Origin: Alphaproteobacteria bacterium LSUCC0684
GTDB taxonomy: Bacteria; Pseudomonadota; Alphaproteobacteria; Puniceispirillales; UBA1172
Assembly: GCA_041228335.1 (NCBI GenBank)
Contig: CP166130.1
Coordinates: 2,637,001 to 2,701,000 of the forward strand
DNA: 64,000 bases
Reading direction: 5' to 3'
Shown here: positions 5,458-8,382 of the stretch, piece by piece
Layout: each line of letters begins with the position of its first letter
Numbering within the stretch: position 1 is the stretch's first letter
The notes under the pieces: model-generated
Database searches by the model: none
Seen by the model: the letters and a program-made list of their open reading frames with translations, nothing else
What the model was told of the DNA's origin: nothing
Translations under genes and position numbers: made by a program

Positions 5458-6282
5458 ATGCCCATCCGTATTGAACCGCCCATTCGTATCGAACCGAAGG
5501 AATTTCATTCCCGCGAGGCACTGGCTGATCATGTCGCGGCGATTACGCCTGGCATCACCCGGACGCAAACAAGCCCGATTGCAGGACATCAGATGGTGCT
5601 GAAGGCGCGGCTTGATGCGCTTGATCCGGCAGGATATGGCCGCAGCCGAAATTTTTTTGATGGCAAGGTCAGCCGTCTTTCCTGTTTTATCCGGCATGGC
5701 ATGATATCGCTCAACCAGGTGCGCAACCTCGCGCTTGACCGGGTCGGCAAGCCGGATGAGGCGGAAAAGTTCATTCAGGAACTCGCCTGGCGGGATTACT
5801 GGCGCCGCGTCCAGCAGGCGCATCCTGACTGGATCTGGCATGATGTCGAAGCCTATAAAACCGGCTATACCCCTGCCGATTATGCCGATCATCTCGATGA
5901 CGATATCCGGGAGGGACGGAGCGGGGTTGCGGCGATTGATGATATCATCACGCTGTTGAAAACCACGGGCTATATCCACAACCATGCGCGCATGTATCTG
6001 GCCGCCTATATCGTGCATTGGCGGCGGATCAAATGGCAGGCTGGCGCCCGGTTCATGCTGGAATATCTCCTGGATGCGGATATGGCCTCGAACAATCTCT
6101 CCTGGCAATGGATCGCCAGCACCTTTTCCCGCAAGCCCTATATTTTCAACCTTGAGAACATGCGCAGATACGCCGGCAACCAGATCAATACAAGCGAGGA
6201 TCAGAACAGGCCGCTTGACGCCAGTTATGATGAGTTGACGGCGCGGCTCTTCCCGCATATCGGGGAGGCGGAAGATGCCTGA
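5458..6282 (+). CDS. Photolyase/cryptochrome FAD-binding domain, stand-alone
   Basis: 274 aa, only the C-terminal FAD-binding helical domain of the photolyase/cryptochrome family; full-length enzymes run 430-500 aa. Marks: 'KFIQELAWRDYWRRVQQAHP', 'TTGYIHNHARMYLAAYIVHW' and, at residues 206-218, 'DADMASNNLSWQWIAST', which carries the Asp/Asn FAD contacts and the first Trp of the usual electron-transfer chain; then 'RKPYIFNLENMRRY'. There is no N-terminal alpha/beta antenna domain and only a short N-terminal lead. An AGAGGA site precedes the ATG. The next gene overlaps it by 8 nt and looks like the missing antenna half. Function inferred: flavin-dependent DNA photorepair or light sensing. Confidence 0.85.
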   Translation: MPIRIEPPIRIEPKEFHSREALADHVAAITPGITRTQTSPIAGHQMVLKARLDALDPAGYGRSRNFFDGKVSRLSCFIRHGMISLNQVRNLALDRVGKPDEAEKFIQELAWRDYWRRVQQAHPDWIWHDVEAYKTGYTPADYADHLDDDIREGRSGVAAIDDIITLLKTTGYIHNHARMYLAAYIVHWRRIKWQAGARFMLEYLLDADMASNNLSWQWIASTFSRKPYIFNLENMRRYAGNQINTSEDQNRPLDASYDELTARLFPHIGEAEDA

Positions 6283-6715
6283 TATCAGGTGGATACATGA
6301 TGAGGCTTTGCGGGCCGATCACCCGGTTTTCACCAATGGGGATGAGGATTGCCGCTCGGTCTTTATCTGGGATGAGGCCTATTTCAAGGCCATGCATTAT
6401 GGATTTGCGCGTCTTGTCTTTGTCTATGAGGCGTTAGGCGAGTTGCCGGTGGATATCGTCAAAGGGGATACGGTCACCATCCTGACGGAACTCGCCACAG
6501 AGAATGGCCGGATCATCACCGCTGATACCCCGAGCCGGGAGCTGCTCCGGCGGATCGAGGCACTGCGGCAGATCATGCCGGTGAAACTTGTTCGTGAGGA
6601 GGATTTCGTCCGGTTCAATTCCCCGCCGGATCTGCGGCGGTTTTTCCGCTACTGGAACAAGGCCCGCAAATCTGCCATGCAATTTGGCGGCGGTATGCCA
6701 GACCTTTTTGACTGA
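6275..6715 (+). CDS. Photolyase N-terminal (antenna)-domain-like protein
   Basis: 146 aa. It resembles the alpha/beta photolyase domain: an opening 'IRWIHDEALRADHPVF' (compare W.RrDLRl.DnPaL), 'SVFIWDEAYF' (compare vFv.d...l), 'LVFVYEALGELPVDIVKGDT' (compare FL.esL..L...l.v..Gd), then 'ENGRIITADTPSRELLRRIE' and 'PVKLVREEDFV'. It ends 'LRRFFRYWNKARKSAM', like the linker that follows the antenna domain in full-length enzymes. GGGGAGG precedes the start. With the overlapping upstream gene it would add up to one photolyase with the halves in reverse gene order. The assignment is by pattern, not alignment. Confidence 0.6.
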   Translation: MPDIRWIHDEALRADHPVFTNGDEDCRSVFIWDEAYFKAMHYGFARLVFVYEALGELPVDIVKGDTVTILTELATENGRIITADTPSRELLRRIEALRQIMPVKLVREEDFVRFNSPPDLRRFFRYWNKARKSAMQFGGGMPDLFD

Positions 6716-6736
6716 TCAGTGATTTCGAGGTGCAAG

Positions 6737-7729
6737 ATGACCAGTTCCACCATGCCAAGATGCGCCATCATCGGTGCCGGTCTAGCCGGGGTTACATTGG
6801 CCCGGAGCCTTGAAGGGCTGGCCCGGGTCCGGATCTTCGAGAAATCACGGGGCCTCGGCGGGCGTATGTCCACCCGACGTCACGACGTCTTCACCTTCGA
6901 TCATGGGGCGCAGTATTTCACGGTGAAGGGAGAAGGTTTTCGCAAATTCCTTGAGCCGTATTTCCGTGATGGCACGGTCCGGCCTTGGCAGACAAGATTT
7001 GTCAGGATGGATGCGGATGGAAATCTTTCAGATCGCGCGATGACGTCAACGCCGTGGGTGGCCTGCCCGGGGATGACCGGTCTTGTCAAGGCCATGGCAT
7101 CAAGGCTGGACTGCCGGCATGAAATCACCATAAGCCGTATCAGAAAAAAAGGCGGCTTGTGGCAGTTGCTTGATGCAGAAGGGATGGTGCAAGGGGAGGC
7201 GGAATGGGTGATAACGGCCATCCCGGCACGGCAGGCAAGCGGCCTCCTGCCAGAGGAATTTCAAGGCAGATCCGCGCTTGAGCAAGTCCGGATGCTGGGA
7301 TGTTTCAGCCTGATGCTGGGGTTTGAAACGCCGCTGCCGCTGGATTTTGGTGCCTGCTTTGTTGAAGACCAGCCGGTTGGATTTATGGCCGAGAACGGGA
7401 CCAAACCTGGTGGCGAGCCTATGGGTTCGCTCACGGTTCAGGCCAGAAACGCCTGGGCGGAAGACATGCTGGAGGCACCGGAGGAAGCGGCTGCGATCAT
7501 GGCGGAATGGCTAAAGGAAAGGGTTGATATCCGGGTCAAGGATGCCGCCTGCAAGCGGTTTCACCGCTGGCGCTATGCCAGCGTCGACACACCGCTTGGT
7601 GCTGCATTTCTTCTGGATGAAGATCTTGGTCTTGGGGCCATCGGGGACTGGTGCATCCGGGGGCGGGTTGAATCCGCCTATGACAGTGCCGCCGCTCTCG
7701 GCGCAAGGATGAAAGAGATGCTGGACTGA
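6737..7729 (+). CDS. Renalase-like NAD(P)/FAD-dependent oxidoreductase
   Basis: 330 aa from the ATG at 6737 (GAGGTG 4 nt upstream). The N-terminal dinucleotide fold 'CAIIGAGLAGVTLARSL' is followed by 'IFEKSRGLGGRMSTRR' and 'FDHGAQYFTVKGEGF', the signature of the renalase/amine-oxidase-like group. The C-terminal FAD contact is 'LGLGAIGDWCIRGRVESAYD'. Such genes are frequently found beside photolyase genes in proteobacteria; the substrate is unknown. It follows the antenna-like gene by 21 nt and is likely co-transcribed. Confidence 0.82.
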   Translation: MTSSTMPRCAIIGAGLAGVTLARSLEGLARVRIFEKSRGLGGRMSTRRHDVFTFDHGAQYFTVKGEGFRKFLEPYFRDGTVRPWQTRFVRMDADGNLSDRAMTSTPWVACPGMTGLVKAMASRLDCRHEITISRIRKKGGLWQLLDAEGMVQGEAEWVITAIPARQASGLLPEEFQGRSALEQVRMLGCFSLMLGFETPLPLDFGACFVEDQPVGFMAENGTKPGGEPMGSLTVQARNAWAEDMLEAPEEAAAIMAEWLKERVDIRVKDAACKRFHRWRYASVDTPLGAAFLLDEDLGLGAIGDWCIRGRVESAYDSAAALGARMKEMLD

Positions 7730-8004: not shown

Positions 8005-8382
8005 ATGAAATCAGCAAAGGATTTTCTTGCCGAAGCCAATGCGGTCGTGCCCCGCATCTCCGGCGAGGAGGCGATGGGCCATTACGGCAAGGATGAATCT
8101 GTCTTTATCGATGTCCGGGACAGCCAGGATATCGCCAAGACAGGAACGATCAGGGGAGCGCTGCGTATCCCCCGCGGGTTCATCGAATTCGCCGCCGATG
8201 ACACAACCCCCTTTCACCAGGAAGCGCTGAGCCGTGACAGGGAAATCTATCTTGTCTGTGCGGCTGGTGGCCAGGCGGCGCTCGCCGGCAAGACACTTGT
8301 CGATATGGGCTACAGCAAGGTGACGAATATCGGCGGTATCGGCGAGTGGAAAGAGGCCGGCGGCGCGATGGATGATGCCTGA
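8005..8382 (+). CDS. Single-domain rhodanese-like protein
   Basis: 125 aa. Rhodanese fold with 'VFIDVRDSQDIAKTGTIRGA' (the conserved D-R and G-H/R-I-x-G-A region), active-site loop 'YLVCAAGGQAALAGK' with the nucleophilic Cys, and 'LVDMGYSKVTNIGGIGEWKE'. Probably a cytoplasmic sulfur transferase. The loop is CAAGGQA rather than the common CxxGxRS. It overlaps the next gene by one base (TGATG), so the two are coupled. Confidence 0.88.
   Translation: MKSAKDFLAEANAVVPRISGEEAMGHYGKDESVFIDVRDSQDIAKTGTIRGALRIPRGFIEFAADDTTPFHQEALSRDREIYLVCAAGGQAALAGKTLVDMGYSKVTNIGGIGEWKEAGGAMDDA

Follow-up and report, generated by a model that had tools for sequence, protein, structure and literature searches.

The window, the whole 64,000-nucleotide stretch of the Alphaproteobacteria bacterium LSUCC0684 genome that was analysed, contains two overlapping genes that probably encode a heteromeric photolyase, in which a catalytic FAD chain would be joined by a separate antenna-fold chain and which would fill the niche of the NewPHL enzymes. 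Photolyases and cryptochromes are normally single polypeptides that begin with the antenna domain. Here the halves are found in reverse order, with the FAD domain (PF03441) in the first gene and the antenna fold in the second, and two overlapping open reading frames were found as originally predicted. The features of the locus are as follows:

5458..6282, + strand: gene for the catalytic (FAD-domain) photolyase subunit, 274 aa, assigned from PF03441, PDB photolyase matches and same-type relatives in many phyla
6264..6268, + strand: Shine-Dalgarno-like GGAGG within the large gene, 6 nt upstream of the small gene's ATG
6275..6282, + strand: 8-nt overlap ATGCCTGA, where the small gene (in the +1 frame relative to the large one) starts and the large gene stops
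6275..6715, + strand: gene for the predicted antenna-fold subunit, 146 aa, assigned from an AlphaFold2 model, VIA-align to 1iqr and the family profile

Both open reading frames start with ATG. Like the classical class I enzymes (1iqr and 1dnp), the pair comprises both domains with a total of about 420 aa (1iqr has 420 aa), but in the classical enzymes a single chain carries them, beginning with the antenna domain, whereas the window has two genes with the FAD domain first. NewPHL shares the FAD-first order but is a single chain, whereas the window has two genes in different frames. The layout that the pair does match is that of Phr4/Phr5, a FAD gene followed by a separate antenna-domain gene. 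At the 5' end of the FAD gene, an imperfect tandem repeat (5458-5493) codes for PIRIEP twice, and the true start may be located downstream. Directly after the pair, at 6719-7729 (+), lies an NAD(P)/FAD-dependent oxidoreductase gene (PF13450, PF01593), relatives of which are found just downstream of the pair in loci L015-L017, L023, L026, L028, L029, L033-L035 and L064, and upstream of it in L030.

The large protein had been predicted to contain the FAD-binding photolyase domain only. A Pfam search identified FAD_binding_7 (PF03441) at residues 105-231 with an E-value of 4e-23 and 82.3 bits (cut-off 27), which places the protein in this family, and did not find PF00875, in line with the prediction. 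The PDB sequences matched are photolyases, with 1dnp as the best match (E 9.9e-19). The PF03441 match spans only 128 of the 203 profile positions, which counts against reading the pair as a heteromeric photolyase. Of the 13 flavin-contact positions given in PMC9426592 and compared by eye on alignments, 9 are identical; this speaks for the FAD domain but, being only 9, also counts against that reading.

The identity of the 146-aa protein as an N-terminal antenna domain, also part of the original prediction, was not recovered by profile search with the single sequence but was recovered at the level of its family. Alone, the protein gave a weak PF00875 match that stays below the curated cut-off (E 0.094), had no Pfam match at E ≤ 0.05 and no NCBIfam match, and phmmer against the PDB returned designed TIM barrels only. 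Within the family, on the other hand, 14 of 43 members matched PF00875 at E ≤ 0.05, with a best value of 3.6e-6. A whole-genome search with the family profile retrieved the family first and then the N-termini of open reading frames of 485-489 aa, which are classical photolyases (E 5.7e-8, 1.9e-6 and 9.2e-6). In the PDB, the profile matched 31 sequences at E ≤ 1, of which 30 belong to photolyases or cryptochromes (best E 4.2e-4). Alignment of the small-family profile with 31 classical N-domains in hhalign gave a probability of 96.3 over 130 columns and a score of 60.8, whereas no score above 23.6 was reached in 100 controls with shuffled columns.

An AlphaFold2 model of the small protein, built from 34 sequences, had a mean pLDDT of 90.9 and superimposed in VIA-align on residues 2-123 of 1iqr with a Z-score of 12.3 and an rmsd of 2.0 over 106 aligned positions; among the matches listed, 50 of 50 were photolyases or cryptochromes. 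Foldseek also placed photolyases first, albeit weakly (best E 1.7e-3, none ≤ 0.001, TMq about 0.46), and from rank 24 onwards its list also contained phosphopantetheine adenylyltransferases, which VIA-align separated from the photolyases. The fold match and the profile matches thus assign an alpha/beta antenna-type domain to the second gene. The small protein is predicted to fold as a photolyase N-terminal antenna domain, and the model did not show a different fold, the outcome that would have spoken against a split enzyme. Its identity is considered settled because the evidence at family level comes from PF00875, the profile, the PDB and the fold.

The best PDB sequence matches of the small-family profile are cryptochromes, and photoreceptor functions are found across the superfamily, which raises the question whether the pair is a cryptochrome-like photoreceptor and not a repair enzyme. 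This appears quite improbable: the catalytic half is photolyase-like in sequence and matches E. coli photolyase best in the PDB, a domain search found no sensor or output domain in either protein, and UV survival is affected by phr4/phr5 (PMC9426592).

To which extent the two genes belong together can be judged from their relatives. When genome contigs were scanned with the FAD protein, 53 loci encoding a relative were obtained, and in 39 of these the small gene lies downstream on the same strand; because of this conservation, chance pairing is excluded. The 39 split loci are labelled Alpha- and Gammaproteobacteria, Oligoflexales, Obscuribacterales, Chlamydiae, Lentisphaerales, Chloroflexi, Verrucomicrobia and others, where many of the genomes are MAGs and some taxon labels may be binning errors. 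The small gene is not beside the FAD gene in the other 14 loci. Eleven of them (L053-L056, L059, L061-L063 and L065-L067) are longer inverted single chains in which the FAD domain is followed by about 140-170 aa, two cyanobacterial loci (L038 and L039) have the small gene elsewhere in the genome, and for the last one (L058) no small gene was found within its 4.2-kb contig. The 388-aa betaproteobacterial inverted chains of L053-L056 adjoin a divergent 515-520-aa gene with a weak FAD-domain match. In L019, a second, 62-aa fragment matching the end of the small family is located at 8136-8321 (+), with the intact copy about 3 kb away.

A survey of co-occurrence, suggested together with the original prediction, linked the two genes at the level of genomes as well. 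The small gene is present in 13 of 61 relatives, and a FAD match at E ≤ 7.9e-106 in the same 13. In 242 cyanobacterial genomes the small gene was found in 53 and a FAD match at E ≤ 1e-40 in 53, with both in 52. One of the two exceptions, G141, has the small gene without a FAD match; the other, G177, has a weak FAD match (5e-41) in a 394-aa frame without a small gene, and this frame is taken to be of the fused type. Two further cyanobacterial genomes, G242 and G276, have FAD matches with one in-frame TAG each. Among the 52 cyanobacterial pairs, the two genes are adjacent in 35, with the FAD gene first, and 1.7-1.9 kb apart in 2; in 9 they share a contig at a distance of at least 89 kb, and in 6 they are on different contigs. 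Both genes are therefore kept when unlinked, which points to a partnership in trans and speaks against programmed frameshifting as the mechanism in general.

These data also bear on the possibility that the FAD protein acts by itself, the small protein being a remnant in decay. The small protein does diverge faster, with 57% for the closest relative in its family alignment compared with 66% for the FAD protein. Yet the small gene is intact in 13 of 13 relatives with the FAD gene, it is kept even when unlinked, and its motif RFFxYWNKAxK is strongly conserved, which leaves the idea of a remnant hardly credible.

A programmed frameshift that joins both frames into one inverted chain has been suggested as a possibility for phr4/phr5 in PMC9426592. 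Overlapping or abutting genes in most loci would be compatible with such a shift, and natural inverted single chains exist, both as phr6 in two Cyanobium strains (in the same source) and as the 388-aa proteins of L053-L056. However, the junctions vary among loci: some genes overlap by 8, 4 or 1 nt and others are separated by short gaps, with outliers of +60 in L031 and +126 in L060. In the junction table of 52 rows, 49 distinct loci remain after dropping 3 duplicate rows, and the relative frames of the two genes are distributed 30, 16 and 3 over these 49. The relative frame hence differs among homologues, and therefore no one shift would serve. Shine-Dalgarno-like matches of at least 4 nt to the anti-Shine-Dalgarno complement were found at 27 of 49 small-gene starts compared with 190 of 960 random upstream-DNA windows (20%), and the two genes are at least 89 kb apart in the 9 cyanobacterial genomes mentioned above. 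A joining frameshift is accordingly very improbable. In L031, the 3' end of the FAD gene (ORF 1778-2509) looks frameshifted relative to its near relative L032, by error or decay.

Co-occurrence, varied reading frames and unlinked pairs instead support two separate paired polypeptides. Intact pairs, varied frames and a photolyase-like catalytic half set the pseudogene, programmed frameshift and light-sensor readings lower than a heteromeric photolyase. In such an enzyme, one message would give rise to two proteins, with translation possibly coupled by the 8-nt overlap and the internal Shine-Dalgarno site. The antenna-fold subunit would pack on the FAD subunit in the manner of the N-terminal domain of classical photolyases, and the two-chain enzyme would repair UV lesions using light. 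A model of the fused chain had a mean pLDDT of 72.8, with residues 131-246 mostly below 60; this counts against the heteromeric reading, and no interface is claimed because the model is too poor to read.

The original prediction implied that the split, reversed layout is novel, which does not hold: it is already known, because the phr4/phr5 pair described in PMC9426592 has the same FAD-first split order. According to that study, marine Synechococcus carry phr4 (a FAD domain with four Fe-S cysteines) and phr5 (a photolyase domain) in reversed order, in all strains studied, and two Cyanobium strains carry a fused phr6. Loss of phr4/phr5 lowers UV-C survival in marine Synechococcus (PMC9426592). 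The split type was not found described outside cyanobacteria in the open-licence literature searched. The window pair resembles Phr4/Phr5 in its two adjacent genes, FAD domain first and antenna-type domain second, and the cyanobacterial pairs found here adjoin the group of the window protein in the FAD tree; these cyanobacterial loci were equated with Phr4/Phr5 by layout and identical CxxCx5C spacing, not by the RS9916 sequence. The junctions differ, with seven G-C base pairs between the genes in the Synechococcus pair described there compared with the 8-nt overlap in the window.

A second difference concerns the iron-sulfur site. Phr4 has the Fe-S cysteines C169, C254, C257 and C263 (PMC9426592), whereas the FAD protein of the window has a single cysteine, C76, and lacks all four. 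Rows with the Fe-S motif are found in cyanobacteria, in Verrucomicrobia and in one Chloroflexi row, where the label was assigned by motif and misses truncated rows such as L119 and odd spacing in L060. Two trees of FAD domains were compared, a quick tree of 99 rows thinned from 132 and a careful tree of 73 of those 99 rows, from which L037_511 and L059_374 were left out because of long branches. The window protein is placed with other split FAD proteins in a group free of Fe-S cysteines (support 90/83), and the split group as a whole has a support of 87/54 in the careful tree. The Fe-S state changes once among the split rows of the quick tree, a pattern that fits one loss in the lineage of the window, with two gains as the alternative.

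The Fe-S site is relevant for the question of which lesion is repaired. The authors of the Synechococcus study predicted phr4/phr5 to be a (6-4) photolyase and not a CPD photolyase, from the Fe-S cysteines and the UV-C phenotype (PMC9426592). As this is the nearest studied pair, the prediction counts against a NewPHL niche for the window pair and for a two-subunit photolyase specific for (6-4) photoproducts. The window protein, however, has no such cysteines and belongs to a group free of them, although Fe-S presence alone is no proof of lesion type. With the Fe-S bacterial photolyases (PF04244, FeS-BCP), the pair shares the FAD-domain superfamily and the antenna fold (3zxs, Z 12.0), but these enzymes are single chains with an Fe-S cluster. 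The genome of the window encodes such an enzyme separately (519 aa, PF04244, with a CxxC...C motif of the Fe-S type), and it also has a class I-like gene of 487 aa. As both of these genes are present, the (6-4) role seems to be occupied already, and (6-4) specificity of the window pair is considered unlikely.

NewPHL enzymes (Emmerich et al. 2020) are described as CPD photolyases of single-stranded DNA (PMC9426592, PMC13274461). Proteins are here called NewPHL-like by architecture, with the FAD domain first and a C-terminal domain second, and not by a published NewPHL sequence. Genes of this type (E ≤ 2e-57) are found in 29 of the 61 relatives, classed by E-value alone, and the split pair in 13; no genome has both, where 6.2 would be expected. 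This non-overlap has a P value of 5e-5 by genome and 0.007 by genus (17 genera); the distribution is clumped by genus, which, like the classing by E-value, counts against the reading as a heteromeric photolyase in the NewPHL niche. Because of the non-overlap and the other photolyase genes of the genome, the NewPHL niche is the likeliest one, and the pair most likely fills it, with CPD in single-stranded DNA as the candidate substrate rather than (6-4) photoproducts.

Relationships between the domains were examined with regard to ancestry. In the careful tree, the NewPHL-like, fused betaproteobacterial and split FAD domains fall on the same side of a branch supported by 100/100. The small-family profile aligned in hhalign weakly with the C-domain of 20 alphaproteobacterial NewPHL-like proteins (probability 65.0, 130 columns, score 34.5, compared with at most 21.5 in 100 shuffles), and weakly with 5 other fused proteins (probability 26.4, only 38 columns). 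The classical N-domains matched the 20 NewPHL-like C-domains with a probability of 7.5, in contrast to 96.3 for the small subunit, which is thus nearer the classical antenna domain than the NewPHL-like C-domain is. These comparisons suggest, on the basis of sequence profiles, that the NewPHL-like C-terminal domain is a degenerate antenna domain. A tentative scenario, to which we give somewhat less than an even chance, is that the split pair represents a living intermediate in which the antenna domain was freed after the catalytic gene, that the NewPHL C-domain is its later, degenerate and re-fused descendant, and that the two types replace one another in the same niche. Two observations count against this ancestry: the match to the NewPHL-like C-domain fell from a probability of 88.3 with 11 mixed sequences to 65.0 with the 20 alphaproteobacterial ones and to 26.4 with the other 5, and in the careful tree, which is unrooted, the classical rows do not form one group, long branches meet and the split group reaches a support of only 87/54.

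The discoverers of NewPHL reportedly proposed that it lies close to the origin of the superfamily; if the scenario were true, NewPHL would be derived and not close to this origin. The small subunit links the classical antenna domain and the NewPHL-like C-domain, which have no clear direct match to each other, and this makes the origin of inverted photolyases testable. The relatives found here extend a little-studied layout from cyanobacteria, to which the literature found had assigned it, to many bacterial phyla, and they indicate that it consists really of two proteins. The pair may thereby offer a natural system for studying the contribution of the antenna domain to the catalytic half, and for finding out if this domain can serve as a removable subunit.
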